Origin: a virus
Length of the DNA: 26,192 nucleotides
Virus record (IMG/VR): IMGVR_UViG_3300021091_003655
Coordinates: 1 to 26,192 of that record
Strand: one strand, 5' to 3'
Of the stretch, positions 2,017-22,271 are shown piece after piece. A model generated the notes under the pieces. It was not told the origin of the DNA and searched no databases. It saw only the letters and a program-made list of their open reading frames with translations. The translations under genes and the position numbers were made by a program. The number at the start of each line of letters is the position of its first letter. The first letter of the stretch is position 1.

Positions 2017-2017
2017 A

Positions 2018-3139
2018 ATGAAATTTAGTATAGTATCAACATTTTATAATAATACTATTGAAGAAATCCAATTACTAAAAGATTCAATTCTGAATCAAAC
2101 ATATAGTAATTGGGAATGGATTATTAGTGATGATTTTAGTCAAGAAAGTACCATTCATGTTGATTATTTAAAAAGTTTACCTTTAGAGGATAAAAGGATT
2201 AATTACATACAACAAAAAAGTAAAAAAGAAATTTTTTGGAATCCCCAAACATATGCAAATGGCGATATTGTTATATTAATTGGTGGTGATGATACTATAT
2301 CACCCAAAACTTTAGAAATATATGTTAACCATTTTTTAAAATATTCTGAAGTAGTTTTTATTACATCTGAGTCAAATATTTTTACACCAAATTTAGCTTA
2401 TAGTTCTTTTTTAGATTATAAAGATTTTAATAATATATTTGACAAAAGACATTTATTTCCATTAGGATGGTTAAACATGGGCGTTCCTTTAGCTTGGAGA
2501 AACATACCCATAAATTTTATTAGTGATGTTCAGTTGAATGGTAGAGAAATAACAAACGACTATTTTATTCACACCAGATTAGAAGAGATCGGTAATTTTA
2601 TACATCTACCGAGAGTATTTTATAATTATAAAATAAGACAGGAGTCAGTGTCAAGAAAGATTGATGAAGACAATAGTTATTCTGAGGCCTCTATATTCAA
2701 TTACGATGATATAATTGAAAAAAGAAGAGAAGGTAAAGAAATTCCAGGTTGTTTAGATGTTTATAATGAGATTGTAGAAGAGTCCCAAGCGTTTTATTAC
2801 ACTAAACTTAACTCAGAAAAAAAATCACAATTTGTTTCATTTATCACAACAAACGACCTACCAAAAAATAAAAAAAGAAAAATAAAAGAAGTGTGGTCCG
2901 ACCATAACATGCACTTCAACGAAACCAATAATAAAATTGACTACTACATTTTTTACCTGAATGAAAATAGTAGTTTTGATGATTTCATAAAAAGATATAA
3001 TAAAATTACAACATCAAAAGAAATCTTCATATTTGTTAGAAATAATAAAAATTTATATAATATGATATCAGGAAATATTAATAATTTTTCTTGGTTTTCA
3101 GTCGAAGATTTTGATTTCATTGTTAAAACAACAAAATAA
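2018..3139 (+). CDS. glycosyltransferase, GT-A fold (family 2-like)
   Basis: A 373-residue protein. The N-terminal half is a family 2-like glycosyltransferase: FSIVSTFYN (3-11), WIISDDFS with D38/D39 for the nucleotide, and LIGGDDTISPKT with D91/D92 in the position of the metal-binding DxD. The later HTRLEEIG and YNYKIRQESVS segments fit the acceptor side of such enzymes. The C-terminal 130 residues are Asn/Lys-rich and unassigned; they could be a second domain. It follows the epimerase by 1 base and probably uses its product. Donor and acceptor are unknown. There is no membrane segment, so it should be cytoplasmic. Confidence 0.85.
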   Translation: MKFSIVSTFYNNTIEEIQLLKDSILNQTYSNWEWIISDDFSQESTIHVDYLKSLPLEDKRINYIQQKSKKEIFWNPQTYANGDIVILIGGDDTISPKTLEIYVNHFLKYSEVVFITSESNIFTPNLAYSSFLDYKDFNNIFDKRHLFPLGWLNMGVPLAWRNIPINFISDVQLNGREITNDYFIHTRLEEIGNFIHLPRVFYNYKIRQESVSRKIDEDNSYSEASIFNYDDIIEKRREGKEIPGCLDVYNEIVEESQAFYYTKLNSEKKSQFVSFITTNDLPKNKKRKIKEVWSDHNMHFNETNNKIDYYIFYLNENSSFDDFIKRYNKITTSKEIFIFVRNNKNLYNMISGNINNFSWFSVEDFDFIVKTTK

Positions 3140-5265: not shown

Positions 5266-5688
5266 ATGGTTATGGATTTAATCACAACACACCCAATTAA
5301 AAAATCAGACTTAGGATTTCATGGTAATCTTTTTGGTGGAAAATTATTGTCTCTTTTGGATGCTTCTGCGGCAGGATATGCAATGCAACTTTGTGATACG
5401 CCAAGAATGGTCACAGTATCAATAGATCAGTGTAATTTTGAAAAACCTGCTAAAGAAAGTCAATTATTAAAAATTTATGGTTACCCTTGTAAATTAGGAA
5501 ATACTTCATTAACTTTGTATATGGAAGCAAGGACTCACAGTGTTTACACAGGAAAACAAGATTTGGTTTTGAAAACACAAATCACATTTGTTCAAATTGA
5601 TGAAGGGGGTAATCCGATTCCACTTGGAGAAAAGGCAAAAAAAAGAATATCTAATTTAATCGAAAACAATGAAAATAACCCCATCTAA
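5266..5688 (+). CDS. hotdog-fold acyl-CoA thioesterase (YciA/BACH-like)
   Basis: A 140-residue hotdog-fold protein. The block HGNLFGGKLLSLLDASAAGYA (from residue 19, with D32 on the central helix) is the hallmark of the acyl-CoA hydrolase group related to YciA and BACH; the Asn20 and Asp32 positions correspond to the usual active-site region. VTVSIDQCNFEKPA and YMEARTH form the following strands. The family hydrolyses acyl-CoA to free fatty acid and CoA in the cytoplasm. A second in-frame ATG at 5272 is an equally possible start. Finding it in a phage would be unusual; it may alter host lipid or CoA pools. The 3' end overlaps the next gene by 20 bases. Confidence 0.85.
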   Translation: MVMDLITTHPIKKSDLGFHGNLFGGKLLSLLDASAAGYAMQLCDTPRMVTVSIDQCNFEKPAKESQLLKIYGYPCKLGNTSLTLYMEARTHSVYTGKQDLVLKTQITFVQIDEGGNPIPLGEKAKKRISNLIENNENNPI

Positions 5689-6589: not shown

Positions 6590-7099
6590 ATGCGTGTTAT
6601 GAATAAGTTTAATTTAACCGAAAAATTAAAAGAAGAGTTAAAAAGAAGAAATCTTTGGGAACAAGAAGATGATGAAGATCAAGATGAAGAAGATAATGAC
6701 GATGATGATTCTCAAGATGAGTCATCTAATCATAACGATGATTTTTGTGAAATGGTTTGTCAGTTATTACATTCACAAACACAAGTTCATATTTTTCATT
6801 TAGGAACCAAATCATACGCTGAACATAAAGCACTTCAAAAGTTTTATGAAAGTATCGATGCTTTAACTGATGGTTTGATTGAATCTTATCAGGGAAAATA
6901 CGGACTATTAAGTAATTATAAGTCATATAAAAACCAATCCTATAAAAACAAAAATCAAGTATTAAAATACTTCAAAGGTTTGCTGAATAGTATCGAAGAA
7001 AAAAGAGATTGTTGTGATGATTCATACATCCAAAACCAAATTGATACGGTTCAAGAATTGATTTATTCAACAATGTATAAGTTGAGATTCCTTAACTAA
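6590..7099 (+). CDS. Dps/ferritin-like protein with acidic N-terminal tail (DUF5856-like)
   Basis: A 169-residue protein. Residues 25-52 are almost solid Asp/Glu with some Ser and Asn. From residue 54 it is helical: LLHSQTQVHIFHLGTKSYAEH (H67, H70, H79), then FYESIDALTDGLIESYQGKYG. The spacing of His, Glu and Asp resembles the Dps/ferritin-like metal-binding pair of helices and phage proteins grouped, as I recall, as DUF5856. Dps proteins sequester iron and protect DNA. The N-terminus FNLTEKLKEELKRRNLWE has LTE and LWE, like the leader proteins further on. A second ATG at 6599 is an equally good start. It converges on the zinc-motif gene with a 4-base overlap. Confidence 0.7.
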   Translation: MRVMNKFNLTEKLKEELKRRNLWEQEDDEDQDEEDNDDDDSQDESSNHNDDFCEMVCQLLHSQTQVHIFHLGTKSYAEHKALQKFYESIDALTDGLIESYQGKYGLLSNYKSYKNQSYKNKNQVLKYFKGLLNSIEEKRDCCDDSYIQNQIDTVQELIYSTMYKLRFLN

Positions 7100-8595: not shown

Positions 8596-8608
8596 TATTT
8601 ATAATAAA
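8596..8608 (+). promoter_or_regulatory. TATTTATAATAAA motif before the gene at 8616
   Basis: This is an exact copy of the 13-mer at 6577-6589. It lies in a 23-base gap and ends 7 bases before ATG 8616. The preceding bases (AAAAG) also match the copy before the gene at 23610 (AAAAGTATTTATA). Confidence 0.45.
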
Positions 8609-8615
8609 AGTTTAT

Positions 8616-9353
8616 ATGGAACTAACAGACAAACAAAAACATGATCTAAGAAGATTTTCTTTAATACTAAATTCCTTGAACATGGAAGATGGTGTTGAGT
8701 ATGTGTATAGACATTATGATGATTGGGAGGGTTATGAACCTGAAGGACCTTATTATAGAAATAAAAATGTAAAAGGTGAATTAGATTTTATACCAGGATC
8801 AATAGGTCCTTTGTTTGAAGAAATAAAAGATAATTTTGATACAGATCTTTTTTATAATGAGTACTACGACAACTATACTGGAGGTCTTCAGTTGATTGTG
8901 AATGCAGAAAAGAAAATGTTAATTGTAAAATATTACTATTACACCATGATTACAGAAGATAGTAGAATAGAAAGATCTTTCAAAGACTTGTCTGAAATGA
9001 CTAATCCATGGAGAAGTGGTGAAAGAGAACTAACCAAACTTACAAATGAAGACTTCTTAAATAAAATGAAAGAAGAATACGGTTCTTATGTTGAATTGAA
9101 CTATGATGGTAGTGGTGATAGTGGATGGATTGATAATAATGTGAATAGTGATAAAGGTTATAAAAGATCAACACCACAACTTGAAAATATTGCATACGAA
9201 GCCTTAGAAATGTTTCATGCTGGGTGGGAAATAAATGAAGGATCAAGTGGATCAATGAATTTTAATTTTGAAGATCAAACATTTTCAGTGACTCACTATC
9301 AAAATATTGAAGACGAAGTTGAAGACTTCTATAAATCTTTTTCTTTCGAATAA
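8616..9353 (+). CDS. hypothetical acidic protein with a DGSGDSG motif (DUF6878-like?)
   Basis: A 245-residue acidic protein. The C-terminal part has VELNYDGSGDSGWID (about 155-169) followed 35 residues later by FHAGWEINEGSSGSMNFNFE. This pairing of a Gly-Asp-Ser motif with 'GWE.N.G..G' is seen in bacterial proteins I recall as DUF6878; the match is tentative. The N-terminal 140 residues are aromatic, with YYNEYYDNY-like runs, and unassigned. It has its own upstream motif and ends directly against the next start (TAA 9351-9353, ATG 9354), so it may be the first gene of the leader-gene operon. Confidence 0.65.
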   Translation: MELTDKQKHDLRRFSLILNSLNMEDGVEYVYRHYDDWEGYEPEGPYYRNKNVKGELDFIPGSIGPLFEEIKDNFDTDLFYNEYYDNYTGGLQLIVNAEKKMLIVKYYYYTMITEDSRIERSFKDLSEMTNPWRSGERELTKLTNEDFLNKMKEEYGSYVELNYDGSGDSGWIDNNVNSDKGYKRSTPQLENIAYEALEMFHAGWEINEGSSGSMNFNFEDQTFSVTHYQNIEDEVEDFYKSFSFE

Positions 9354-10217
9354 ATGGACAAGTTAATTAAAGAAGAGATACTAAGAATAAACGAGTTGAT
9401 GAATACAAAAATTCTTAACGAATCGGCGTATAAACAATGCTCAAGATTTTCAAACTCTGCGCAAAAATTACTTGTTTGTAAAAAAATAGCATCACTGAAA
9501 AGTTGGTTATACAAAGATGATGGTTTGGGAATGAAAAATGTAATAAATAATAAAATCAAAGATTTAGAAACTTACATTCCTCAAAACTTAAAACAACAAT
9601 TTATTCAAGGGGCAAACTTATTGTATTCACTAAATAAAATAAATAAAAGACAACTTGATTTTTTCATAAACACTAAAGTTAACACAGGTAAATTGGTATA
9701 CGTGGATGGTAATTGGCAGTTTGTTAATAAACTTAATACCAATTATTATGATATTTCAGAAATGTTAACGGATATGATTTATAAAGGAGGAGACAGGGCT
9801 AAACCAATAATACAAAATGTTATTAGAGATCCCAAATCTGCTTTGTCATCTATACAACCCAAAATAACAGAATTAGTTGATAAGTATTTTAAGGATCCTA
9901 ATGAGTTAATTGATTATACAAAGAATATAGAAAGAACAACATATATTGGTGAAATTGGTGAAAAACAAGTTGAAGATGAGTTAATAAAAAAAGGATTTAC
10001 AACCAATTACTTTGGAGGTAATGGTGATTTAATTGATATGTCTTTTGGAACGGATCTAGTTATGACATCACCTGAATACGGGACAAAAACAATACAAGTG
10101 AAAAATTCTGATAGATCTTGGAATAAATCCGATGAATATCCTTATGTGGACTGGGTTATAATTTCAGATCCTTTTACGATTTATGATAATAAAACAAAGG
10201 AAGTTGTTGAGTTATGA
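9354..10217 (+). CDS. PD-(D/E)XK nuclease-like protein with N-terminal leader
   Basis: A 287-residue protein. Residues 1-23 form a variant leader ending in KILNE23-S, so LNE matches the [LI]-x-E pattern seen in its neighbours. Residues 29-140 are a helical domain (VCKKIASLKSWLYKDDGLG, VNKLNTNYYDISEMLTDMI) I have seen in other phage proteins but cannot name. Residues 195-265 look like a PD-(D/E)XK nuclease: GEIGEKQVEDEL helix with Glu203, GNGDLIDMSFGTD with D234, and TIQVK with Q248-V-K250, the QxK form found in Mrr-like enzymes. It would cut DNA, host or competitor. It overlaps the next gene by 4 bases (ATGA), starting a run of coupled leader genes. Confidence 0.7.
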   Translation: MDKLIKEEILRINELMNTKILNESAYKQCSRFSNSAQKLLVCKKIASLKSWLYKDDGLGMKNVINNKIKDLETYIPQNLKQQFIQGANLLYSLNKINKRQLDFFINTKVNTGKLVYVDGNWQFVNKLNTNYYDISEMLTDMIYKGGDRAKPIIQNVIRDPKSALSSIQPKITELVDKYFKDPNELIDYTKNIERTTYIGEIGEKQVEDELIKKGFTTNYFGGNGDLIDMSFGTDLVMTSPEYGTKTIQVKNSDRSWNKSDEYPYVDWVIISDPFTIYDNKTKEVVEL

Positions 10218-10768
10218 AAATAGTAATATCAGAACGGCAATTTAATTTGATCAACGAAAGTGATGTTAATAGAAATATTACTGCACTTCAAAAACATTGG
10301 AGAAAAAAACTTAAAAACGGCACACAAATTAGATTCGATAAAGACGAACTTGAAATGTGGGGGATTACTAAAAGATCAGATAAAATACATGCTCAAATAT
10401 TATTTCAAATATTAGTTGGAGACGAAGAATTTGCAAAAAAAACCATTGAAAGTCTGTTAGATGAAACATTCTCAACAAAAAACTTCAGTGATAGAATTGT
10501 TGGGGGTTTTGATTTTGAGTGGATCATTAATCAAATGAATTATCAAGATTTTGATTTCTTTTTATATGGTCAAACATTACCTGGAGGTTCTGTTAGTTTG
10601 ATGAATGGTAGACATTTATCTTTAGAAGAGGCATTAGAAGACGAAGATATCGGTTACGAAATTCAACAGGAAGTTAACGATGTTGTTCAGGATTGTATGA
10701 ACGAAATAATTTTACCTATAACAGGGTATGAGGTAGATGTACCAGTGGTTTATATTTCAGAAGGATGA
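10214..10768 (+). CDS. leader-family protein, body unknown
   Basis: A 184-residue protein. Residues 1-15 MKIVISERQFNLINE are the leader, with ISE7 and INE15 candidate processing sites, followed by Ser16. The body is acidic and unrecognised: an N-terminal helix rich in Lys (TALQKHWRKKLKNG), a central helical part, then GGFDFEWIINQMNYQDFDFF and a C-terminal segment ending YEVDVPVVYISEG. It overlaps both neighbours by 4 bases (ATGA), so translation is coupled. The leader is the only link to a family. Confidence 0.75.
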   Translation: MKIVISERQFNLINESDVNRNITALQKHWRKKLKNGTQIRFDKDELEMWGITKRSDKIHAQILFQILVGDEEFAKKTIESLLDETFSTKNFSDRIVGGFDFEWIINQMNYQDFDFFLYGQTLPGGSVSLMNGRHLSLEEALEDEDIGYEIQQEVNDVVQDCMNEIILPITGYEVDVPVVYISEG

Positions 10769-11154
10769 AAATAATAATTACAGAACAACAACAAAAAATA
10801 TTAAACGAGTCAAAAAGTCTTGAGTTCGCACAAAATCTTATTGATCAGGCATTTGATGATCTAAAGGATGATTGTGAAAATAGTTTAATTAATTCTTATA
10901 CTTGCGAAGAAGTTGAAACAGTAGAAAAAATAAAAGTTGTTGATGTTCAAAAAGTTTTTGTAAAAACACAAACAACCAAAGAAAGTTCTTTTTTACTTGT
11001 AAAAATTGATGTTGACTACAATTATATCAGAGAGTATAGAGATTTGTCTGATTTTGAAATACAACTTCAATGGGCAACAAAACAAATTATTGGAAATAAT
11101 ATTCGAGTTTCAATCAATAATCAAAATAACACAAGAAAACAATTTGATTGGTAA
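10765..11154 (+). CDS. leader-family protein, paralogue of the gene at 13101
   Basis: A 129-residue protein with leader MKIIITEQQQKILNE15-S (ITE7, LNE15). The body begins QNLIDQAFDDLKDDCEN, followed by KVVDVQKV and DFEIQLQWATKQIIGNN. The protein at 13101 has the same order (QNLVDMGVDDYVEGC, KVLDVTKI, DFEITLQIKVANIIG), so the two are divergent paralogues. Predicted alpha/beta with a long amphipathic strand region. Function is unknown. It has a 4-base overlap upstream and shares the A of TAATG with the next start. Confidence 0.75.
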   Translation: MKIIITEQQQKILNESKSLEFAQNLIDQAFDDLKDDCENSLINSYTCEEVETVEKIKVVDVQKVFVKTQTTKESSFLLVKIDVDYNYIREYRDLSDFEIQLQWATKQIIGNNIRVSINNQNNTRKQFDW

Positions 11155-11744
11155 TGAAAATAATAATATCAGAATCACAATATAACTTACTTTTTGAATC
11201 TAACTATGAGAAAAATAAAAAGTTGGTTGAAAAGATGTGGGATGATGGTATGTCTTTTAATGACATTAGAGAATTGATTGGGATAAAAAAAGATCAACTT
11301 TATTTTCTTTTGAAAGATAAAGAACACAAAATTAACTGTTCTACTGCTTATTATGATATTTTAGATATAATAGATAACACCGATTTGATAAATAAAAAAA
11401 TAAATATTAAAGACATTGAATTGGAATTAGGGTTTTATGATTTCGGAGGAACTCTAAACTTTATTTATAAAGACAATGATTTTCATATTGAAGGAATGGC
11501 AACTCCTTACTGGGATGGAAATTGTACTTTACCTGTAGAGATTGGATATTTTGAAGATTTATCAACAAATGAATATAATGACGAATACGATGGATTACAA
11601 ATGACCGTTGATTACGAGTTAGTTCCAAAACAGTTCAATTCATTTCAAGAGTTGGTTGATTTTATGAATAATGAATATCCGTATCTTATTGTTCCTAAAA
11701 TACAAAATTCTATACCACATTACATAGATAGACTTAGCAAATAG
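11154..11744 (+). CDS. leader-family protein with possible helix-turn-helix
   Basis: A 196-residue protein from ATG 11154 (overlapping the previous stop by one base). The leader MKIIISESQYNLLFE is identical to those of the next two genes and almost identical at DNA level (46 bases, one difference), yet the body is unrelated. Residues about 22-56 (LVEKMWDDGMSFNDIREL, then GIKKDQLYFLLKD) look like a helix-turn-helix. The rest is beta-rich and acidic (FYDFGGTLNFIYKDN, YWDGNCTLPVEIGYF). Function is unknown; DNA binding is possible. Confidence 0.75.
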   Translation: MKIIISESQYNLLFESNYEKNKKLVEKMWDDGMSFNDIRELIGIKKDQLYFLLKDKEHKINCSTAYYDILDIIDNTDLINKKINIKDIELELGFYDFGGTLNFIYKDNDFHIEGMATPYWDGNCTLPVEIGYFEDLSTNEYNDEYDGLQMTVDYELVPKQFNSFQELVDFMNNEYPYLIVPKIQNSIPHYIDRLSK

Positions 11745-11880
11745 AATATGAAAATAATAATATCAGAATCACAATATAATTTACTTTTTGAATCAAAATT
11801 GAAACAAAATCTTAAACAGGAAATTAAAGATTTTGGAATAAAAGATACTGCTGAACTTGTTAATGGGTTGGATAATTTAT
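11739..11880 (+). repeat. 142-bp direct repeat, copy 1
   Basis: Identical to 12206-12347. It begins 9 bases before the ATG of the first duplicate gene (AAATAGAAT) and covers the leader and the first 44 codons. After a two-base difference (GC at 11881-11882, TA in the other copy), high similarity continues for about 50 bases and then falls off. Confidence 0.9.
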
Positions 11881-12197
11881 GCGAAATACTTAATATAAAT
11901 TCACCAATGGAATTTCTTCATTTGTTTGACGACTTAGATATGGCTCAAAGTAAAGAATATCCTGATTTTACTCTATTTAGATATAAACCAAAACATAATT
12001 TAATGATTTACGATAGAAAAAGTAAAATTGCTTACATTAATTACTATGAAATATGGAAACCTTTATTGGATACTGGTCTGTTTCATCCTGATATTCAGGA
12101 ACTTATAAAAGAGTGGTTGTCTAATGTCTACAATATAAGGGGAGTCACACCTAAAAGTCAGTTCGCGTTAAGTTCGTCTAAATTGTTTGAGGTATAG
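11748..12197 (+). CDS. leader-family protein, first of a tandem duplicate pair
   Basis: A 149-residue protein with leader MKIIISESQYNLLFE15-S. Residues 17-62 are a helical region (EIKDFGIKDTAELVNGLDN, SPMEFLHLFDDLD). Residues 70-110 are beta-rich (FTLFRYKPKHNLMIYDRKS, IAYINYYEIW), and PDIQELIKEWLSNVYNIRG is a C-terminal helix. It is nearly identical to the next gene over the first 60 residues and then clearly diverged until the WLSNVYN block. No family recognised. The C-terminal tails differ completely, suggesting that the end has been rearranged in one copy. Confidence 0.75.
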   Translation: MKIIISESQYNLLFESKLKQNLKQEIKDFGIKDTAELVNGLDNLCEILNINSPMEFLHLFDDLDMAQSKEYPDFTLFRYKPKHNLMIYDRKSKIAYINYYEIWKPLLDTGLFHPDIQELIKEWLSNVYNIRGVTPKSQFALSSSKLFEV

Positions 12198-12205
12198 AAT
12201 TAGAA

Positions 12206-12347
12206 AAATAGAATATGAAAATAATAATATCAGAATCACAATATAATTTACTTTTTGAATCAAAATTGAAACAAAATCTTAAACAGGAAATTAAAGATTT
12301 TGGAATAAAAGATACTGCTGAACTTGTTAATGGGTTGGATAATTTAT
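12206..12347 (+). repeat. 142-bp direct repeat, copy 2
   Basis: Second perfect copy of 11739-11880, offset by 467 bases. Identity starts just before the gene and ends inside codon 45. It indicates recent duplication or gene conversion restricted to the 5' part of the gene. Confidence 0.9.
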
Positions 12348-12658
12348 TAGAAATACTTAATATAAATTCACCAATGGAATTTCTTCATTTGTTTGATGAC
12401 TTGGATGTTGTTCAGAGTGAAGAAAATCCTTATTTTACTTTATTTCGTCACAAAAAAGGTAAAAATATGATGATTTACAATAAGAAAAATAAGGATGTTT
12501 ATATTAATTTTGAAGAGATTTGGGTACCTTTACTTGATGTTGGTCTTTTTAATCCTGACATTCAGGAACTTACAAGGGAGTGGTTGTCTAATGTCTACAA
12601 TTTAAGGGGAGTTAAAACCCTTCCCTTGCTGGGTAGACCAACAATTGATGCTATCTAA
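12215..12658 (+). CDS. leader-family protein, second of a tandem duplicate pair
   Basis: A 147-residue near-copy of the preceding gene. The leader and first 44 residues are identical in DNA. The middle differs by substitutions (MIYNKKNKDVYINFEEIW against MIYDRKSKIAYINYYEIW), and the last 16 residues (from LRGV onward, ending PTIDAI) share nothing with the first copy. Function is unknown. The pattern of identical front and diverged back fits selection on the body after duplication, or gene conversion of the front. Confidence 0.75.
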   Translation: MKIIISESQYNLLFESKLKQNLKQEIKDFGIKDTAELVNGLDNLLEILNINSPMEFLHLFDDLDVVQSEENPYFTLFRHKKGKNMMIYNKKNKDVYINFEEIWVPLLDVGLFNPDIQELTREWLSNVYNLRGVKTLPLLGRPTIDAI

Positions 12659-12672
12659 TGTCTACAATATAA
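12654..12672 (+). repeat. remnant of a further duplicate copy
   Basis: The 19 bases TCTAATGTCTACAATATAA also occur near the 3' end of the first duplicate gene (around 12119-12137), where they encode SNVYNI. Here they lie across the stop of the second copy and in the gap before the next leader gene, outside that reading frame. This suggests that a third copy was mostly deleted. Confidence 0.55.
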
Positions 12673-12683
12673 AATAATAGAAT

Positions 12684-13085
12684 ATGAAAATAATAATATC
12701 AGAATCACAACTTAGTCTTCTTAAAGAAAATTCTATTGTAGATATGGATCTTCAACAACTATATGATAGGGCCATAAAATTAAAAAAAGTGGTTTCTAAA
12801 AATATACTAAGAGAATTGGAAGATTATTCTTGGTTTGATGGGTTACAGGTGAGTATTGAAAGAGATTGGGGAGGACTACCTTATTATTTTTTTAATATAA
12901 AAACAAATTTATCCCTAACAGAAGATAATTTTTATAGTGAGAAATTAGCTGAAGAAATTTATGAAAAAATTGAAGATGTCTTTACCGCCTATTTCCCAAA
13001 AGTTAATAAAAATACAAAAGAAAACTTAACTGGTGTTTGGGATGCTACAATATCCGACAGACATGATTATGTAACTCACATTTAA
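12684..13085 (+). CDS. leader-family protein, body unknown
   Basis: A 133-residue protein with leader MKIIISESQLSLLKE15-N. The first 27 bases of the gene are identical to those of the three preceding leader genes; the codons then differ. The body is alpha/beta: MDLQQLYDRAIKLKKVV helix, then WFDGLQVSIERDWGGLPYYFFNIKT strands, a helix at EKLAEEIYEKIEDVF, and a C-terminal WDATISDRHDYVTHI. It resembles no family I know. It is preceded by the same AATAGAAT sequence as the duplicate genes. Confidence 0.75.
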   Translation: MKIIISESQLSLLKENSIVDMDLQQLYDRAIKLKKVVSKNILRELEDYSWFDGLQVSIERDWGGLPYYFFNIKTNLSLTEDNFYSEKLAEEIYEKIEDVFTAYFPKVNKNTKENLTGVWDATISDRHDYVTHI

Positions 13086-13088
13086 AAC

Positions 13089-13097
13089 TATTTATTT
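13089..13097 (+). promoter_or_regulatory. TATTTATTT motif before the gene at 13101
   Basis: TATTTATTT in the 15-base gap, with its first T 12 bases before ATG 13101. The spacing matches the copies at 18336 and 23598 (11 and 12 bases). It is the only clear break in the otherwise coupled leader cluster, so it may give a second transcript start. Confidence 0.35.
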
Positions 13098-13100
13098 GAT

Positions 13101-13793
13101 ATGAAAATCATTATAACGGAAAATCAAAAAAATTTACTAGTTGAATCAAAACAAATTGAGTCAGTTCAAAATCTTGTTGATATGGGGGTTGATGATTATG
13201 TTGAAGGATGTTCTAGAAGACATGCATTTAGAAATCTTGAACTTGCACTTTGTAAGGGGTTCAAGAACGGAACAACAAAACTCAAGGTTTTAGATGTAAC
13301 AAAAATACAAGACCATTATAATGTAAAACTTTCTATACACACAGACCAAGAATGGTTTCAAAGGGCAGACTTTCAAGATTTTGAAATCACATTACAAATT
13401 AAAGTTGCAAATATAATAGGAACACACAAGTATGGGTTTATTATCAGAGATATGAAATTAGATGATGGTGAAGGAGAGGATATGATTTTTGAGGGTCGTG
13501 AAATGAGTATTAAACTTAAAAGAAGATTTGCTGAACTTGAAAAAATTGGAGAATCAATTGAGTATCAAACTGAAATACAAGATCCATGCAACTTTGAGGA
13601 TGAAAATGACTATGCCGACTTTTGTATTGGTGAAGGACTTTATTTTTATTATAACGATGATGAAGATGAAGATTATGAAAATCCACCAGAAGAAATGGTT
13701 GAAGTTAGAGATGAGGTAGAAGAATATCTACAAGAAAAATTCTATGACTATTTAGTAGATATTTATAATGACTTAGTAAAAAATTGTAACTAA
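13101..13793 (+). CDS. leader-family protein, longer paralogue of the gene at 10765
   Basis: A 230-residue protein with leader MKIIITENQKNLLVE15-S. Residues 16-110 match the protein at 10765 in order and motif (QNLVDMGVDDYVEGC, KVLDVTKI, DFEITLQIKVANIIG). The extra C-terminal 110 residues are very acidic: DDGEGEDMIFEG, YNDDEDEDYENPPEEMVEV, then a helix ending LVDIYNDLVKNCN. Function is unknown. The stop shares a base with the next start (TAATG), so the zinc protein behind it is coupled. Confidence 0.75.
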   Translation: MKIIITENQKNLLVESKQIESVQNLVDMGVDDYVEGCSRRHAFRNLELALCKGFKNGTTKLKVLDVTKIQDHYNVKLSIHTDQEWFQRADFQDFEITLQIKVANIIGTHKYGFIIRDMKLDDGEGEDMIFEGREMSIKLKRRFAELEKIGESIEYQTEIQDPCNFEDENDYADFCIGEGLYFYYNDDEDEDYENPPEEMVEVRDEVEEYLQEKFYDYLVDIYNDLVKNCN

Positions 13794-14101
13794 TGAAAAT
13801 ACTATTAACAGAAAAACAGGCTGATAGGATATTCAACAATAAGGTTGAATGTGAAAAGTGTGAACACTCTTGGAAAAAAGAAAATAGTGATCCACATCCC
13901 AATCTTTGTCATGATTGTGGGTGGGATCAGAATAAAAAAGTTTACGATAAAGAAAATCTGTTTAAGTTTTGGAAAAACAAATTATCAAAAAAGGAGATAG
14001 ATGAAAAGTGGTCTCAAAAATATAAAAGATCGATAGATTGTAACAACCCAAAAGGATTTAGTCAAAGAGCACATTGTCAGGGGAGGAAAAAAAATAATTA
14101 A
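13793..14101 (+). CDS. leader-family zinc-ribbon protein
   Basis: A 102-residue protein. The N-terminus MKILLTEKQADRIFN keeps the first half of the leader (LTE7, then K-Q) but lacks Glu at position 15. Residues 19-45 are a zinc ribbon: CEKCEHSWKKENSDPHPNLCHDCGWD, with Cys pairs spaced CxxC...CxxC. The C-terminal SIDCNNPKGFSQRAHCQGRKK (about 80-100) is a block I recall from the ends of other phage proteins; its two Cys and one His may bind another metal. The basic C-terminus suggests nucleic acid binding. Last gene of the leader cluster. Confidence 0.75.
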   Translation: MKILLTEKQADRIFNNKVECEKCEHSWKKENSDPHPNLCHDCGWDQNKKVYDKENLFKFWKNKLSKKEIDEKWSQKYKRSIDCNNPKGFSQRAHCQGRKKNN

Positions 14102-14104
14102 AAT

Positions 14105-14662
14105 ATGTCTTTAATAACATTTATTATACCATCAATAAATAGACCTACAATTCAAAACACAATAAATTCACTCATAGACCAAACAAACCCGAATTGGAAT
14201 TGTATTGTATTATATGATGGTGTGGTAGGTAAACAATTTGATGATCCGAGGATCAAAACTCTGAATTTAAACAAATTGGGTAAAAAAGGTGAAAGACATG
14301 GTAATGCTGGTTTGGTTAGAAATGAAGGTATTAAAATGTGTGAAAGCGAATGGATTGGGTTTCTCGACGATGATGATACAATAAATTGTGAATATGTTGA
14401 AACACTGTTCCAAAAATACCAATCATATGATTTTGTTGTTTGGAGAATGAAAACCACTGATGGTAATATTTATCCTGAATTGACAAGAAATAATATTAAA
14501 ATAAACAGGGTAGGAATATCAATATCTTTTAAAAATAAATTTCCTGAGGCTTTATTTGATAATAATCACGATTCTGAAGATTTTGAATTTGTGAATAAAC
14601 TTAGAAATATTACTCATAATTTTATAATAACTTCAGAGATTTATTATAATGTTAAGCACTAA
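14105..14662 (+). CDS. glycosyltransferase, GT-A fold (family 2-like)
   Basis: A 185-residue compact enzyme. ITFIIPSINRP (4-14) and VLYDGV with D38 bind the nucleotide; ERHGNAGLVRNEG (63-75) carries the Arg-Asn pair common in this family; WIGFLDDDDTI has D88-D91 as the metal-binding DxD. DSEDFEFVNKLR near the end corresponds to the family's catalytic ED region. It is short but has all core motifs, so it is probably complete. First of five glycosyltransferase genes in a row. Donor and acceptor cannot be told. Confidence 0.85.
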   Translation: MSLITFIIPSINRPTIQNTINSLIDQTNPNWNCIVLYDGVVGKQFDDPRIKTLNLNKLGKKGERHGNAGLVRNEGIKMCESEWIGFLDDDDTINCEYVETLFQKYQSYDFVVWRMKTTDGNIYPELTRNNIKINRVGISISFKNKFPEALFDNNHDSEDFEFVNKLRNITHNFIITSEIYYNVKH

Positions 14663-14703
14663 TATAACTTTAGTTGTTAGTTAAATTTTTTATACTATAA
14701 AAT

Positions 14704-15321
14704 ATGAGAGTAATTACTTTTTATAACGAAGTTGTGAACCCATCATTCGCTAAATTACAAAAAAAGATATTTAATAAGTACGGATATAATATAGATCAAA
14801 TAAATGTAAAAAATTGGACAACGCATGGTGATGCTGTTAATCAATATTTATCGACTATAGATGATGAAAATGAAATTATAGTGTTGTTCGATATTGATTG
14901 TATTCCTTTAAATAATAATATAATTCAGAAAGCGGTTGATTGGTGCAAAAATAATATTGGTATATTTTCATTAGCGCAAAAGGCCGTTAAGTTAAAAAAC
15001 CCTATAATTCATGCCGCACCTGCCTTTATGGTATTTAGTATCAAAACCTATAATGTTTTGGGTAGACCAAGTTTTGAGGAAAACTTGAGATCTGACTGTG
15101 GTGCTGAAATGACACATGCTGCAAGAAAAAAGGGTGTTGAAATAAGAATGTTATACCCGAGTCATGTTGAATCACCATATGCTCAACTTGACGGACCAAT
15201 ACAGTTTGGATTCGGGACAACTTATGGTAATGAAATCTACCACGCATTTGAATCAAGATTTAGACAAAGAGATAGTTTTTTTATCAATAAATGTAATTCT
15301 ATAATTAACACAAATGGATGA
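14704..15321 (+). CDS. putative glycosyltransferase (GT-A-like)
   Basis: A 205-residue protein. IIVLFDIDCIPL (58-69) has D63-x-D65, a clear DxD in the right context. The N-terminus MRVITFYNEVVNPSF and the later HAAPAFMVFSIKTYNVLG, LRSDCGAEMTHAARKKG and YPSHVE segments look like a compact GT-A sugar transferase. It resembles uncharacterised phage glycosyltransferase-like proteins rather than a named family. It follows a 41-base gap with no clear promoter and overlaps the next gene by 8 bases. Confidence 0.65.
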   Translation: MRVITFYNEVVNPSFAKLQKKIFNKYGYNIDQINVKNWTTHGDAVNQYLSTIDDENEIIVLFDIDCIPLNNNIIQKAVDWCKNNIGIFSLAQKAVKLKNPIIHAAPAFMVFSIKTYNVLGRPSFEENLRSDCGAEMTHAARKKGVEIRMLYPSHVESPYAQLDGPIQFGFGTTYGNEIYHAFESRFRQRDSFFINKCNSIINTNG

Positions 15322-16006
15322 AGTTTTTGATTATTGTGTTTTTATAACAACATACAATAGATCTGAAATGTTGGAATATTTAATTCAACAGATACAGAGT
15401 CAAAGAAACAATTTAAAACTTAAAATAATAGTTTTTGATGACGGTAGTGATGAAAAATACCAACTGTCAGATCAAGTATCGTACTTCAAGTTTTTCCCCA
15501 ACATGGGTAAAAAAAAGTTTTGGAAAATCATAGATACTAGTCTAAAACTAATCAAACAAATCGATGCTAAATATTTTATATTTTTACAGGACGATGTAAC
15601 AATAAAAGAAAATTTTTTCAACGACCTACGAAAAAAATATGAAGAAATTGAAGACCCAAAAAAAATAAGCTTAAGCTTCTTATCCGATTATAGAATAAAG
15701 TCACCTAATTGGACAAATTATCAACCAAGAGTTAGAGGAGAAGTCATTAAAACTCAATGGATAGAATTACATTTTATTTGTGAAAAAAAAATATTTGAGG
15801 CTTTAGAATATAAAATGGAACCAATTAACCCAACAAGGTGGGACGACAATCCTTTATTGAGTTCTGGTGTTGGTTGGCAAATGTCATTAAGACTACATAA
15901 TAAAGGTTATGGTATGTATCACACTAAAGAATCATTTGTTTCACATGGTGATCACGAATCAAAAATGAATAAACAAGAAAGAGTTAAGAATAAACTTATT
16001 GTATGA
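15314..16006 (+). CDS. glycosyltransferase, GT-A fold (family 2-like)
   Basis: A 230-residue family 2-like enzyme: FITTYNR (10-16), IIVFDDGSDE with D42/D43, and FIFLQDDVTIKENF with D93/D94. The downstream WDDNPLLSSGVGWQMSLRLH segment fits an acceptor-binding region. It overlaps the upstream gene by 8 bases and the downstream gene by 4 (ATGA), so it is tightly coupled in the operon. Substrates are unknown. Confidence 0.82.
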   Translation: MDEVFDYCVFITTYNRSEMLEYLIQQIQSQRNNLKLKIIVFDDGSDEKYQLSDQVSYFKFFPNMGKKKFWKIIDTSLKLIKQIDAKYFIFLQDDVTIKENFFNDLRKKYEEIEDPKKISLSFLSDYRIKSPNWTNYQPRVRGEVIKTQWIELHFICEKKIFEALEYKMEPINPTRWDDNPLLSSGVGWQMSLRLHNKGYGMYHTKESFVSHGDHESKMNKQERVKNKLIV

Positions 16007-16977
16007 TTTCAGAAAAAAAAATAGTAAATGTTGCTTCATATGGTCGTTTGGATTCTTTAGTAAAAACTTTAGATAGTATTATAGATCAATGTGATGTTGT
16101 TAATGTCGTTTTAAATTCTGAAATACACGACATACCAAAAATACTTTTACATGAAAAAATAAATTTGGTATTCAGTGATAATTCTTACGGTGATGCCATG
16201 AAATTTTATTTCTTACAGGAAAGTGATGGGTATTATCTGACAATTGACGATGATATAATTTATCCACCTAATTATGTTGATTTTATGATATCAAGATGTA
16301 AAGATTATAATAACACAAGAGTAATAACTTTACATGGTAGAAGTTTTAATAAATTCCCAATAATTAGTTATTATAAATCGGCAACCGAAAGATATTCTTG
16401 TTTTAAGGGACTTAAAAAAAATGTTTTAGTGCAGTTTGGTGGTACTGGAGTGATGTGCTTTCACACATCCTTATTCAGATTACCCTTGGAATACTTTGTA
16501 TATCCTAATATGGCGGATGTTTGGATTGGTAAATATTGTATGGAAAATAATTTAGAAATTTTTTGTATTAGACATGACGATGGATTTGTAAAATATATTG
16601 AGCAAAAAACAACAATTCACGGTAATTACATTGGTAATGACGGATTACAAACAAAAGTGGTAAATTCTATTTTTGATAAGTCTATTGTATTTGGGGATCT
16701 AAGAGTGGAAACTGTAGAAAATACCCATCAAGAAGTGTTAAGAGTAAATGAAATAAAAACAAGAATTAAACCTACCATTGAAATTAAAAAATCAACAATT
16801 AATTATGATAGAATAAATCAAATTTTTCAAAACTCGAACACAAATAATTATGATAGAATAAATCAAATTTTTCAAAACTCGAACACAAAAAAAAATAATG
16901 ACCAAAATAAAATTTCATCAACACAATTTACTAAAACCAATACCTCTATGTTAAATAAATTTAATAAAAAGAGATAA
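16003..16977 (+). CDS. glycosyltransferase (family 2-like) with repeated C-terminal tail
   Basis: A 324-residue protein. The catalytic part (about 1-230) has IVNVASYGRLDSL at the start and YYLTIDDDIIYPPNY with D82-D84. FGGTGVMCFHTSLF and DVWIGKYCMENN are typical of the acceptor half. The tail (about 235-324) is Asn/Lys/Thr-rich and has two perfect copies of a 15-residue unit starting NYDRINQIF at residues 267-281 and 282-296. The next gene's tail has a related INYDKIN motif. The tail may be a flexible linker or docking segment. Both ends overlap neighbours (ATGA, TAATG). Confidence 0.82.
   Translation: MISEKKIVNVASYGRLDSLVKTLDSIIDQCDVVNVVLNSEIHDIPKILLHEKINLVFSDNSYGDAMKFYFLQESDGYYLTIDDDIIYPPNYVDFMISRCKDYNNTRVITLHGRSFNKFPIISYYKSATERYSCFKGLKKNVLVQFGGTGVMCFHTSLFRLPLEYFVYPNMADVWIGKYCMENNLEIFCIRHDDGFVKYIEQKTTIHGNYIGNDGLQTKVVNSIFDKSIVFGDLRVETVENTHQEVLRVNEIKTRIKPTIEIKKSTINYDRINQIFQNSNTNNYDRINQIFQNSNTKKNNDQNKISSTQFTKTNTSMLNKFNKKR
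16801..16890 (+). repeat. tandem 45-bp duplication in a glycosyltransferase tail
   Basis: Copies 16801-16845 and 16846-16890 are identical except for the last base. The unit is a multiple of three, so it adds 15 residues without breaking the frame. The near-perfect identity indicates recent slippage or unequal recombination. Confidence 0.92.
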
Positions 16978-17933
16978 TGGGACTTTCAATAATAATACCC
17001 ACATTCGATAATACAGAATTTATTGATGAGTTATTTGAGTCTATTATAAATAATAAAACAAAAATACCTTACGAAGTAATGATCGGTATTGATGGTTGTG
17101 AAAAAACTAAAGAATACTTTTCATCTAAAACATATCAAAATAATTTTTTATTTTATTATTTTGTAAAAAATGAAGGTCCTTATAAGATTAAAAATACTTT
17201 AGCTGAAATTTCAAACTACGAAAAAATATTTTTTTTTGATTCAGACGATATAATGGGAGAAAATGCGATAGAAAAAATAAATGAACTATTGGACAAGTAT
17301 GAATGTGTAAAACCAAAATTCAATAACTTCAAAGACTTTAAAGGGGTAAGAAATTTTGATAATACGCCAAATCAATATGGTGAAGGTGTTTTCGGAATAA
17401 ACAAAAGACTATTTTTAGGGATGAATGGATTCGAGGGTTGGAGATGTGCTGCGGATTCAGATTTTATGGGACGTATCTATAAAACAGGTAGAAAAGTGAG
17501 TCTTACTCAAGATATACTTTTTCATAGAAGAATACATAATAAAAGTTTGACAAAGAGAAAAGATACTGGTTATGCCTCAGATATGCGAGGTGAATACTCA
17601 AGACTTTCAAAAAATAAATCTTATTTTGGCCCTTTACCTTTTCTATCAAAAAATGATTATCAAATTCTTGATATTGAAACTTATGAATGGTCAAACACCA
17701 TTTTAGAAATCCCAAATGAACAAAAAAACTTTCAAAAAGATTTAAAAAATAAAAAACATGAGTTACTTGATGTAATTTTTGGAAACCAATTAAAAGAAAC
17801 TGTTCAAAAAAAAAATAACCCCATAAATTATGATAAAATAAATAAAATAACAAATTATCAAACCCAATCTAAAGTTTCTGAAGCATTAAAAAAAGCAAAA
17901 TTACAGGAAATATTAAGAGGATCGCGGCGTTGA
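16977..17933 (+). CDS. glycosyltransferase, GT-A fold (family 2-like)
   Basis: A 318-residue family 2-like enzyme: LSIIIPTFDN (3-12), MIGIDGC with D39, NEGPYKIKNTLAE (65-77), and KIFFFDSDDIMGENAI with D88-D91. GWRCAADSDFMGRIYKTGRK and FHRRIHNKSLTKR match the C-terminal half of chain-extending transferases. The tail contains INYDKIN, like the repeated motif of the preceding protein, and ends with a basic helix (LKKAKLQEILRGSRR). Last of the five-gene set. The related tails suggest that the last two enzymes work together or dock on the same partner. Confidence 0.85.
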   Translation: MGLSIIIPTFDNTEFIDELFESIINNKTKIPYEVMIGIDGCEKTKEYFSSKTYQNNFLFYYFVKNEGPYKIKNTLAEISNYEKIFFFDSDDIMGENAIEKINELLDKYECVKPKFNNFKDFKGVRNFDNTPNQYGEGVFGINKRLFLGMNGFEGWRCAADSDFMGRIYKTGRKVSLTQDILFHRRIHNKSLTKRKDTGYASDMRGEYSRLSKNKSYFGPLPFLSKNDYQILDIETYEWSNTILEIPNEQKNFQKDLKNKKHELLDVIFGNQLKETVQKKNNPINYDKINKITNYQTQSKVSEALKKAKLQEILRGSRR

Positions 17934-18335: not shown

Positions 18336-18346
18336 TATTTATAAAC
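18336..18346 (+). promoter_or_regulatory. TATTTATAAAC motif before the lysozyme gene
   Basis: TATTTATAAAC abuts ATG 18347, with its first T 11 bases before the start. It matches the core and spacing seen before the leader genes at 13101 and 23610. Confidence 0.4.
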
Positions 18347-19264
18347 ATGAAAGTTTCTCTTACAGAAAAACAATTCGAAAGAATTCAAACTAAATTAGTG
18401 TATGAAAGAATTTTAGATGACATGGTGTTCAAATTATCATTAATTACTGAAAATGATGGAAAAAATGAACCCGACATGGAATGGGATTTCATTAAAGTAA
18501 AACAAGATATTGATTTTGCCAAAAAATGGGTCCAAACTAAAAAAGACGCTCAAGAGTTTGTTGAAAAACTATTCAACAAAATAAAAAATATACCACCAAA
18601 AGTCAAAAGAAAAATACTTAGATACGTATTATTTTCATTTTTAGGTTTGATCAGTCTCGAAAAAATTGATAATTTATTAGATTTACCACTTGAAACTGCG
18701 GTTAAACAAGAAAAAAAAGTTATTAAAAATGTTGTTAAGAATTTAAGAATTAGAAAGTCATCATACAAATTATTAGATCATTTGAAATGGGAAGAAGGTT
18801 CAATAGTCCATAAAGGTGAACCGGTATTAACGGCTTATAATCTTGGTGATGGTGCAAAGACAATTGGTTTTGGTCACGCTATATTTCCAAGAGAAAAAGA
18901 AGGATATAATTTTCTTCCAAGATATAATAAAATCATTTCAGGTAAAACCAAAATCACAAAAGAACAGGCAGAAACACTACTTAAAGACGATATTAAAGAG
19001 GCCGAAAGTATTATTAATAGAATTCTTGATCAGTGGGAGGAAGAGGGTATAAAACCCAAGATTACTCAAAGTATGTATGATGCAATGGTCTCAATGGCAT
19101 ACAATATGGGACCTAGTATTAGAACATCTGACTTTATCCAATATGTTAAACAAGGTGACTTTAAGGCGGCCAAAGAAGAAATATTAAACACAAGTTCTCA
19201 CATGTTTAACGAATACCCCGGTTTGAAAACAAGACGAGAAAGAGAACATAAAATGTTTGTATGA
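18347..19264 (+). CDS. T4-type lysozyme (GH24) with leader-family N-terminus
   Basis: A 305-residue protein from ATG 18347; an upstream TTG at 18329 would swallow the promoter-like motif. The N-terminus MKVSLTEKQFERIQTKLVYE keeps LTE7-x-Q9 of the leader and has LVYE at 17-20. Residues 20-130 are helical and charged, with a hydrophobic stretch at about 91-112. Residues 140-305 form a GH24 muramidase: LKWEEGS with E150, LTAYNLGDGAKTIGFGHA with D168 and T172 (the Glu-Asp-Thr set of T4 lysozyme), and AYNMGPS near the C-terminus. It cleaves the glycan strand of peptidoglycan. The leader suggests packaging in the virion rather than only late lysis. A 4-base overlap joins it to the next gene. Confidence 0.88.
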   Translation: MKVSLTEKQFERIQTKLVYERILDDMVFKLSLITENDGKNEPDMEWDFIKVKQDIDFAKKWVQTKKDAQEFVEKLFNKIKNIPPKVKRKILRYVLFSFLGLISLEKIDNLLDLPLETAVKQEKKVIKNVVKNLRIRKSSYKLLDHLKWEEGSIVHKGEPVLTAYNLGDGAKTIGFGHAIFPREKEGYNFLPRYNKIISGKTKITKEQAETLLKDDIKEAESIINRILDQWEEEGIKPKITQSMYDAMVSMAYNMGPSIRTSDFIQYVKQGDFKAAKEEILNTSSHMFNEYPGLKTRREREHKMFV

Positions 19265-19929
19265 TGGATAACGAAAAAATATTAAAATTATTCAAACAGT
19301 TTGCAGGAAATCCTTTAGATATTCATGGATTGATAGTAACACCAATTAAAGTTGAACCATGGAATCGAAGTTCACAAGGAGTCAATATGTATTTTAGAGT
19401 TACAAATCCTAATGATGTTTCATATTTTTCACCATTAGTTGAAAATTATATTTACGATGAAACAGCTAGTTTTAGTGAGTTTATAAATAGTAAAATTGGT
19501 GTTCATTTTGTTCCAAGTTTTAAACAAGGAGTTTATTTAAATGAAGAATTAAAATCAAAAATTCAAAAAGTATTTGATTTGGTTAAAGTAATTGAGTTTA
19601 CAACAGGAACTCCTTTTATTGGTTATGAGAGATACAAATTGTTTATAGAGTCGGTTGGAGTATCAACGGCATATTGGGATGAGGAAAGTTTATACATAAT
19701 CAATAATGTAAAAGTGGTAAGAGCTGAAAAAAATGGTGAATGGTGGGATCCCAAAGTTGTTCAAAGAGAATATACTGAAGTATTTTTACCTAATAAAGAA
19801 AGTTACTGGGAAACAGAAAATCTTTACTCCGAAATTGATTATATCTTAAACGATTATCCCCTCTTTGTAGATCCATGGGTAACACCGCAGGTTATTACGA
19901 CACCAAGTTTATCCAATAACTTTCTTTGA
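19261..19929 (+). CDS. hypothetical protein
   Basis: A 222-residue protein; ATG 19261 (overlapping the lysozyme stop as ATGA) or ATG 19264. It is alpha/beta, with VTPIKVEPWNRSSQGVNMYF, YIYDETASFSEFI and a later EWWDPKVVQREYTEVFLPN, then LYSEIDYILNDYPLFVDPW. Tryptophan and Tyr content is high for this window. No family recognised. It runs convergently into uvrC, sharing the last 21 bases with it. It may act with the lysozyme, given the coupling. Confidence 0.7.
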   Translation: MMDNEKILKLFKQFAGNPLDIHGLIVTPIKVEPWNRSSQGVNMYFRVTNPNDVSYFSPLVENYIYDETASFSEFINSKIGVHFVPSFKQGVYLNEELKSKIQKVFDLVKVIEFTTGTPFIGYERYKLFIESVGVSTAYWDEESLYIINNVKVVRAEKNGEWWDPKVVQREYTEVFLPNKESYWETENLYSEIDYILNDYPLFVDPWVTPQVITTPSLSNNFL

Positions 19930-21183
19930 TCTTTTTTGTCGGTGAAAAGAAATTACAAATCTGTGAACTTCATTTTGAACTTCAGCGAGCAAAAACCCAA
20001 ACTCATTTCGTTGAATATCAAATGACGATCCATCCACTAAATGAATTGTTTGAGACTGGTGTTTGTCGTTTTTAGAAATAGAAATTAAGTCAATACGAGA
20101 CAACAAACCAAGAGACTCAAATACTTGTTTTGCAACACCCAACTGACCTTTACCACCATCAATAACAACAAGTGAAGGTAATTCTTGTTTCTCACTTAAA
20201 AGTCTTGTAAAACGACGAGAAAGAACTTCAGAGAAAGAAGCATAGTCATCAGGTCCCTCAACAGTTTTGATGTTGAACTTACGATAGTTTGACTTATCAG
20301 TTTTACCATTCTTGTAACGAACAAGAGCAGATACCTGACAATCACCAGCAGTGTGAGAGTTGTCAAAAGCCTCAATTAAAGTTGGAACATTGATTAAACC
20401 CAAAGACTCTTTGAACTGACGGGCAACATCATTATATTTTCTAACACGAAAAGGTTCAAGTTTTTTCTGTAATGAATCAACCACAGAGATTTTAGTTTTG
20501 AACTCATTTGCTTTCTCAAACTCCATAGAATCAGAAAAGTATTTCATAGATTTTTTCAAACGAGAACGAACCTTGTCAAACTCAAAAGAAAATAATTCTT
20601 TCATTTCATTTACTATCTTCTTGTAGGAAAATTTCAGAATATTTGAAACGCAAGGAGCGTTACAACGACCAAGATGAAACTCCAAACAAGTTTTAAACTT
20701 CTCGTTTGAAATGTTTTCTTCAGTCAAGTTGTAAGAACAAGATCGTAAATTGAATATGTCGTGAACCATCTCATAGATTTCATAACAAGAGTTGGAACTT
20801 GTGGACTCAAGAAGGATCTGACCTGAAAAGTTAGAAGGATTACAAACAAGTAATCTTGGAAAGTCCTCATCAGTCAAAGTAATAAACCAACGACGAGATC
20901 TGTCGTCTTTTGCTTTGATGTTGTATTTAGGTTTGAGTGACTTGATAAGTTCATCTTCCAATAAAAGAGCTTGAGACTCATCATTCGTAGTCATGAACTC
21001 AACATCACGAATCTCACTCACAAGAGAAGTAGTCTTTTGGTCTTTGTTATTTTTTTGAAAGTAAGACTTCACTCGTTTAGGAAGATACTTTGACTTACCC
21101 ACATAGATGATCTGACCTTTCTCGTTCTTGAAAAGGTAACAGCCACTAGATTGGGGAATGTTTGAAAGTTTCTCTGTTATCAC
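19909..21183 (-). CDS. uvrC: UvrC-like excinuclease subunit lacking the C-terminal HhH domain
   Basis: A 424-residue UvrC homologue starting at GTG 21183-21181. Domains in order: GIY-YIG nuclease (GCYLFKN 14-20, IIYVGKSKYLPKRV 25-38, Glu76), a four-Cys region (C149, C166, C174, C178) matching the iron-sulphur ligands of UvrC, a UVR helix pair (about 205-245), and the RNase H-like 5' nuclease with D274 (EAFDNSH), D342 (VVIDGGKGQL) and H407/H414 (EVHRFVISFHR). UvrC cuts on both sides of a lesion in nucleotide excision repair with UvrB. Usual length is about 600; the C-terminal HhH2 DNA-binding domain is missing. All catalytic residues are present, so this looks like a compact functional form that could use host UvrAB. 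It has a textbook Bacteroidota promoter. Confidence 0.93.
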   Translation of the reverse strand: MITEKLSNIPQSSGCYLFKNEKGQIIYVGKSKYLPKRVKSYFQKNNKDQKTTSLVSEIRDVEFMTTNDESQALLLEDELIKSLKPKYNIKAKDDRSRRWFITLTDEDFPRLLVCNPSNFSGQILLESTSSNSCYEIYEMVHDIFNLRSCSYNLTEENISNEKFKTCLEFHLGRCNAPCVSNILKFSYKKIVNEMKELFSFEFDKVRSRLKKSMKYFSDSMEFEKANEFKTKISVVDSLQKKLEPFRVRKYNDVARQFKESLGLINVPTLIEAFDNSHTAGDCQVSALVRYKNGKTDKSNYRKFNIKTVEGPDDYASFSEVLSRRFTRLLSEKQELPSLVVIDGGKGQLGVAKQVFESLGLLSRIDLISISKNDKHQSQTIHLVDGSSFDIQRNEFGFLLAEVQNEVHRFVISFHRQKRSKKVIG

Positions 21184-21953: not shown

Positions 21954-22271
21954 ATGTTACGACACCAAAACCCAATTCACATTAACACCACAACAACAGG
22001 ATTTGCGTCACCAGCAGAAACCTATGTTGATAAACGACTTGACTTAAATGATCTAATTGTAAAGGATCATTACACGACATTTTATTTCAAGTATTCAGGA
22101 CCAAGTGTTTTTGGAATCAATCAAGGAGATACAATAGTAATTGACAGAACAGAAGATCCCAAAGATGGAGATTTGGTAATACTAACAGAAAAAACACACT
22201 TCAAACTTAGAGAATATAAAGGACAAAAAAACTTATGGGGAAAAGTAACATGGGTACTAAAGAAAATGTAA
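21954..22271 (+). CDS. umuD: UmuD-like LexA-fold autoprotease (short form)
   Basis: A 105-residue S24 peptidase. The block [23 protein letters not shown] (from residue 15) aligns with the UmuD region starting at its Cys-Gly cleavage site, so Thr15-Gly16 is the likely self-cleavage point. Catalytic Ser51 (SGPSVFG) and Lys84 (HFKLREY) are present, and LWGKVTWVL is the C-terminal strand. E. coli UmuD has 139 residues; the loop before the last strand is missing here, so this is a compact form. After RecA-stimulated cleavage, UmuD' joins UmuC to form polymerase V. It overlaps umuC by 37 bases, or 22 if umuC starts at 22250. Confidence 0.88.

Follow-up and report, generated by a model that had tools for sequence, protein, structure and literature searches.

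A run of adjacent genes in the 26 kb viral contig examined here (IMG/VR record IMGVR_UViG_3300021091_003655; the window is its whole length, 26,192 nucleotides) encodes proteins that begin with a common short leader ending in the motif [LI]xE. Comparisons with related contigs make it very probable that such leaders are capsid-targeting sequences working like those of the internal proteins of phage T4, in which an N-terminal leader ends in the (L/I)xE motif of gp21 (PMC9026906, PMC3012670, PMC12373910). Because mostly unrelated proteins share a tag that ends in the site of the phage's own capsid-maturation protease, we conclude that the heads of these large lake phages probably carry dozens of distinct proteins, which enter the host along with the DNA, as a few proteins do in T4.

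Eight consecutive genes between positions 10214 and 14101 start with M-K-I-[IVL]-[IL]-[ST]-E-x-Q, the class A leader, in each case at the beginning of an ATG-initiated open reading frame (ORFs 10214, 10765, 11154, 11748, 12215, 12684, 13101 and 13793), and the neighbouring gene at 9354 has a different leader, ending KILNE↓S (the arrow marks the predicted cut). A preliminary description of this DNA had recognised an N-terminal leader on these eight genes and on 9354, which the ORF starts from 10214 to 13793 confirm; the [LI]xE that it placed at residues 13–15 of nearly all leaders is present in seven of the eight cluster genes, the exception being 13793 (MKILLTEKQADRIFNNK). The repetition is far above chance, since the DNA pattern of the leader start matches seven times on the + strand of the window and not once in the reversed control. 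The same pattern matches at least 120 IMG/VR stretches, compared with 12 in 257 Gb of cellular genomes, and class A leaders sit on many body families across distant phages. No paper turned up in a full-text literature search with the leader strings. In a set of 213 non-redundant class A leaders the information content is 3.3–4.3 bits at residues 1–7, 3.8 at Gln9, 2.4 at position 13 and 1.3 at Glu15, falling to 0.7 bits or less from residue 16 onward, so that the earlier remark that similarity stops at Glu15 was right. In 90 of the 213 (42%) the triplet [LIVM]xE has its Glu at residue 15, whereas past residue 16 its share stays at about 8% or below at every position; a site near residue 15 is present in 126 (59%), and [STN]E7 in all selected leaders. 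At the level of sequence, the leader and its [LI]xE end are established features.

The motif at the end of the leaders is also that of the head proteins. The major capsid protein (MCP) has the site ENQASFLINE↓AT (or HLINE↓A) in 7/7 related genomes, its Glu-Ala aligning with FLTE↓A of T4 gp23. At the N-terminus of the protease stands [IM]xE↓S or something similar, and the protein in the scaffold position has LVKE↓S together with a conserved LIE↓S near its C-terminus. Capsid sites of a different consensus, which the preliminary description had considered as evidence against packaging, are not what we see: FLINE↓A or HLINE↓A in the MCP and [LIVM]xE↓S in protease and scaffold. The match between leaders and MCP is established. 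The residue following the glutamate (P1′) is Ser, Asn, Ala or Gln in 67% of cases after Glu15 (p 2e-28) and in 69% after Glu7 (p 2e-51), whereas it is so in 21% after the same motif elsewhere in the proteomes. At residues 7–26, [LI]xE[SNQA] is enriched 3.2–5.5x in seven related contigs, 3.0x in Flavobacterium phage immuto and 2.0x in T4, but not in crAss001 (0.8x). No comparable rise is seen for control motifs that have Asp, Lys or a displaced Glu, and replication and tail homologues lack the site, ThyA excepted. The predicted cut may fall after Glu7, after Glu15 or after both. Were leaders that lack the Glu15 site cut at Glu7 instead, a preference for Ser, Asn, Ala or Gly at residue 8 would be expected there; the difference, 72% versus 61%, is not significant (p 0.11).

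The leader is an exchangeable module. Besides class A there are several other classes, MKK(I/V)IRLTESDLxRIVRRVINE↓, MKKFLITEEEKxRILxMH...LxE↓, xEEIxRIxxLMxxxLNE↓ and MKxLIRxILKE↓ among them, and all that these have in common is [LI]xE↓. One type of body is found behind different leaders with the junction at [LI]xE: the 11748 body family carries a class E leader in G003_54642, and in the family of the DHH-like gene 23610 the junction is [LI]xE↓SG[IL]R in 14/14 members, behind leaders of 7 to 31 residues and at least four kinds. Among 107 families with divergent N-termini, [LI]xE stands at the joint in both partners in 20, compared with 6–12 at shifted positions. We regard the exchange at the joint as established.

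The same DHH-like family connects these leaders with that of T4. Homologues of 23610 in two uncultivated phages of 635 and 642 kb start MISKYNQFINE↓EVG and MLRKYGQFINE↓EVG (LR745206.1, LR756502.1; L315, L316, L347-L366), and these phages have about 18 other genes with Y-x-x-F-I-x-E, mostly close behind the ATG. The form of the leader there, M..K[KR]Yx[QE]FIxE↓, is near the T4 leader MKTYQEFIAE↓A; both phages encode a gp23-type capsid protein, with a sub-threshold PF03420 match 2–3 kb upstream. One DHH-like body is therefore served by both kinds of leader, T4-like in one phage group and of the window type in another, as far as their sequences tell.

Leader genes also tend to share an upstream element, TATTTAT, at fixed distances before the start codon with peaks at −11/−12 and around −21. 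With related genomes pooled, the box stands before 52% of leader genes and before 21% of the remaining genes (p 9e-23), an association that we regard as established. Many head genes have it too; among replication homologues most are without it, but the helicase has it in 4/4. Over the whole window the 7-mer is no commoner than chance, and it is therefore the placement that counts. Six gene starts in the window have it (3590, 6590, 8616, 13101, 18347 and 23610). The boxes lie on the + strand at 8596–8602, 20 nt before 8616, the first gene of the operon 8616–12684; at 13089–13095, 12 nt before the ATG of 13101; at 18336–18342, 11 nt before that of 18347; and at 23598–23604, 12 nt before that of 23610. 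By analogy to T4, we read TATTTAT as a late promoter-like box, which would imply late expression of the leader genes. A box at −11/−12 (G001–G004; window 13089, 18336, 23598) would place the transcript start at the ATG itself, which suggests that the late mRNAs are leaderless.

Contigs with these leaders are not mainly ones that lack capsid genes, the outcome that the preliminary description had named as refuting its proposal. Of 30 contigs, 11 encode a gp21-type protease (PF03420) and 12 a gp23-type capsid protein (PF07068); both occur in all four ~300 kb leader contigs and in the 140 kb contig G007, which holds most orthologues of the window cluster in identical order together with both head genes, of which that of the protease is at G007:36843, and the scaffold-position protein. 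The contigs with neither head gene range from 18 to 214 kb, some of middle size (107–214 kb), and may be fragments. By capsid protein, the closest cultured phages are Flavobacterium phage immuto, which has a few such leaders itself (for example ...AGIITE↓S), and Microcystis phage Mel-JY01. A match to ribosomal protein S21 (bS21) was found in 8 of 9 contigs tested, on the strand opposite the head genes in those inspected. The accessible text of Chen et al. 2022 (PMC9723584) describes bS21-encoding Bacteroidetes phages from freshwater lakes, with genomes up to 331 kb and with bS21 encoded on the reverse strand in the head cluster. Given this shared layout, the leader-bearing contigs probably belong to the clade outlined there; leaders and internal proteins are not mentioned in that accessible text, which suggests packaging for bS21 itself only.

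Taken with the late box, the shared motif, the leader exchange, the P1′ preference and the T4-like leader on 23610 homologues give good computational support to what the preliminary description had proposed, a T4-like set of head-packaged proteins with the leader as tag. In the mechanism that we infer, the proteins would be made late, from late-type promoters that head genes use as well, and the leader would dock each of them onto the scaffold core as the prohead grows. The gp21-type prohead protease would then cut after [LI]-x-E (Glu15 and/or Glu7), the motif that it uses on the capsid protein, and the mature protein, freed inside the head, would be packaged and ejected with the DNA at infection, where it may act against the host. 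Since the leader is exchangeable, unrelated bodies would be recruited by acquiring it, among them wall hydrolases, a candidate nuclease, DHH-like proteins, zinc ribbons, superoxide dismutase fusions and many unknowns.

Several observations weigh against this interpretation. The window is a fragment and has no head genes of its own; its leaders do not contain the T4 leader sequence Y-x-x-F-I-x-E, and its cluster bodies are mostly acidic (pI, the isoelectric point, 4.4–5.9), the basic ones in the window being 9354, 13793, 18347 and 23610. The orthologue of 9354 in L228 reads NPNE↓S, with no Leu or Ile, Mel-JY01 shows no enrichment of [LI]xE[SNQA] (1.0x) with an MCP and protease that are related, and the family-weighted excess of leader exchange (20 versus 6–12) is modest though consistent. 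In addition, 87 of the 213 class A leaders (41%) lack the second site, near residue 15, and a single helix (residues 7–29) continues through Glu15-Ser16 in the 12215 model from AlphaFold2. These last two points, like the strand-helix look of the leader, suit a different explanation, in which the leader is a tag for some other destination (a phage compartment, the tail or the membrane) and its [LI]xE end is part of an amphipathic helix and not a protease site. We consider this unlikely, since S/N/A/Q at P1′ lies far over background at both sites, unlike leaders are exchanged with [LI]xE alone being kept, and the motif recurs in MCP, protease and scaffold and is absent from tail homologues.

Two further explanations are much less probable still. 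The shared 5′ end might be a copied nucleic-acid element, such as a translation enhancer or regulatory site, whose peptide has no role; the isoleucine codons of the leaders do favour ATA (61%, against 33% in the remainder of the genes), and the spacing between TATTTAT and the ATG is fixed. The leaders nevertheless differ at synonymous positions and have amino acids in common rather than bases, the other classes share just [LI]xE↓, and operon-internal genes have the leader without the box, all of which make such an element very improbable. Hardly more credible is a recent tandem duplication in which the N-termini were merely slower to diverge and imply no common function. Paralogues do occur, as 11748/12215 and 10765/13101, and G001 has many copies of one family, but most bodies are unrelated, one body can carry several leader classes, and class A leaders are found on many body families in distant phages. 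Capsid targeting thus remains the preferred reading.

The likeness to T4 lies in a short leader, ending (L/I)xE, on otherwise unrelated and variable proteins, as in IPI, IPII, IPIII, Alt and the T-even ip loci, and in a gp21-type protease and gp23-type MCP that share a cleavage motif (in relatives including G007). The T4 internal proteins are described as basic. In contrast to T4, the leader sequences are different, fall into several classes per genome and often have two sites; about 33–49 candidate genes bearing leader and site are counted per ~300 kb genome (by a regular expression, a few being certainly false positives) compared with T4's handful; and the cargo includes wall hydrolases, DHH-like proteins, a candidate nuclease, superoxide dismutase and polyprotein-like fusions, with mostly acidic bodies in the window. 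Because the T4 leader sequence and basic cargo were looked for and are lacking, we place the window set outside the T4 family, as a far larger variant of the T4 internal-protein system with other leaders. In T4, targeting is influenced by leader residues 4 and 7, and processing by residues 8 and 10 (PMC9026906). The ejection (inner-body) proteins of SPN3US and phiKZ offer a second parallel, being many head proteins with protease-removed propeptides, some with conserved N-termini (PMC5694885); in those phages, however, the site is A-x-E or S/A-x-E and the propeptides mostly exceed 100 residues (PMC5694885, PMC9026906), whereas here [LI]xE is found in leaders, MCP, protease and scaffold, and the leaders are of 7–35 residues.

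All leaders of the window lie on the + strand. That of gene 9354–10217, of class D (MDKLIKEEILRINELMNTKILNE↓, 9354–9422), has its predicted cut after Glu23 with Ser next, and the orthologue in G007 retains ILNE↓S. The class A leader of gene 10214–10768 is MKIVISERQFNLINE↓ (10214–10258), that of 10765–11154 is MKIIITEQQQKILNE↓ (10765–10809), and MKIIISESQYNLLFE↓ is common to genes 11154–11744 (11154–11198), 11748–12197 (11748–11792) and 12215–12658 (12215–12259), the last with a body paralogous to that of 11748. Gene 12684–13085 starts with MKIIISESQLSLLKE↓ (12684–12728) and gene 13101–13793 with MKIIITENQKNLLVE↓ (13101–13145). Gene 13793–14101 has the short leader MKILLTE (13793–13813), with LTE7 and nothing at residue 15; relatives of its body (L097, G011) have other leaders, with a site. 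It is one of the zinc-ribbon-like proteins (CEKCxHSWK...CHxCGWD; 13793–14101 and many loci, L008, L017, L040, L097) that are found behind several different leader classes. Beyond the cluster, the lysozyme gene 18347–19264 has a leader (18347–18451) with the predicted cut LITE35↓N, where [LI]xE is preserved in 8/8 listed relatives; the DHH-like gene 23610–25955 has MKDLIIKIMIEESKKLLVE↓ (23610–23666), with LVE19↓S; and gene 6590–7099, with a late-type box upstream, probably has one at 6590–6661, ending NLWE↓Q.

The bodies, which the preliminary description had called mostly unrelated, are so for the greater part. Compared without their leaders, however, 11748 and 12215 form a close pair of paralogues (79% identity, E 4e-68) and 10765 and 13101 a distant one (E 5e-5); 10214 and 9354 give a marginal match (E 0.002). 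Many copies of the 11748/12215 family are scattered over G001 (at about 79, 117, 167, 239–242 and 284 kb), mostly with a class A leader. Searched against Pfam and PHROGs, the cluster bodies had no match, with lysozyme 18347 as the sole exception (Phage_lysozyme, E 1e-19); nor did 11154 and 12215 match isolated phages by tblastn. The model of 12215 (predicted local distance difference test score, pLDDT, 89) has no significant match to a known fold in Foldseek, the hits being noise. The body of 9354 (9423–10217, + strand) is a candidate PD-(D/E)XK nuclease with invariant E203, D234 and Q248-x-K250; its AlphaFold2 model has a pLDDT of 79 and Foldseek gave nothing significant (best match the AvaII endonuclease, E 0.04), so the assignment is based on the conservation of these residues.

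Across 73 leader proteins (leader proteins alone counted) there are only nine Pfam families, none of replication: phage lysozyme, LysM, peptidoglycan-binding, SLT transglycosylase, GDSL lipase and a few Ig-like or carboxypeptidase-regulatory domains. Recognisable cargo domains thus appear to be nearly all wall-degrading, wall-binding or surface-type, and PADLOC matches are marginal. Fusion proteins with a superoxide dismutase domain (PF02777, 6e-40) have LNE↓S- or LNE↓Q-type sites where their domains meet, and at one such joint the leader motif itself is repeated internally (ILITETQKNILE↓A); by the strict pattern, internal leader copies in longer proteins are few (two). The Fe/Mn superoxide dismutase fusions lie at L175:193-1716 (G001:240193), L023:3598 onward, G002:165304 and G003:204901, where the partners are a peptidase-like domain (LAHEWVH), nuclease-like domains or the 12215-family domain, with joints [LI]xE↓S/Q/A.

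The T-even internal proteins were likewise recognised by their leader and were later shown to inhibit host restriction enzymes (PMC12373910). In this abundant group of uncultivated phages a simple sequence rule flags 33–49 candidate delivered proteins per genome, most of them without a known domain, which together make up a ready-made set of candidates for anti-defence and takeover functions. Exchangeable leaders suggest a route by which such phages recruit new cargo, and could act as packaging tags in Bacteroidetes phages. We lean, with some reserve, towards the broader view that the ~300 kb Bacteroidetes phage clade is a general protein-delivery platform, in which interchangeable leaders and one prohead protease would serve dozens of cargoes per head, from wall hydrolases, candidate nucleases, DHH-like proteins and superoxide dismutase to unknown small acidic proteins, with some fusions released by internal cuts, so as to prepare the host before phage gene expression.

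Other genes were seen in the course of these comparisons. The portal ORF is 1031 residues long in G001:162873-165968 (L171:2873-5968) and 925 in G032:79876-82626, compared with 602–624 in relatives; the extra sequence lies between residues 151 and 575 and is possibly an intein or inserted gene. In window regions 14105–17933 and 1087–3139, several genes resemble glycosyltransferases and one resembles a sugar epimerase; all of them lack a leader. Pfam matches at 423–1052, 19909–21183 (− strand), 21316–21858, 22235–23467 and 5266–5688 indicate a ClpP-type protease, a UvrC-like nuclease, a YceI protein, a UmuC-type polymerase and a 4HBT thioesterase.

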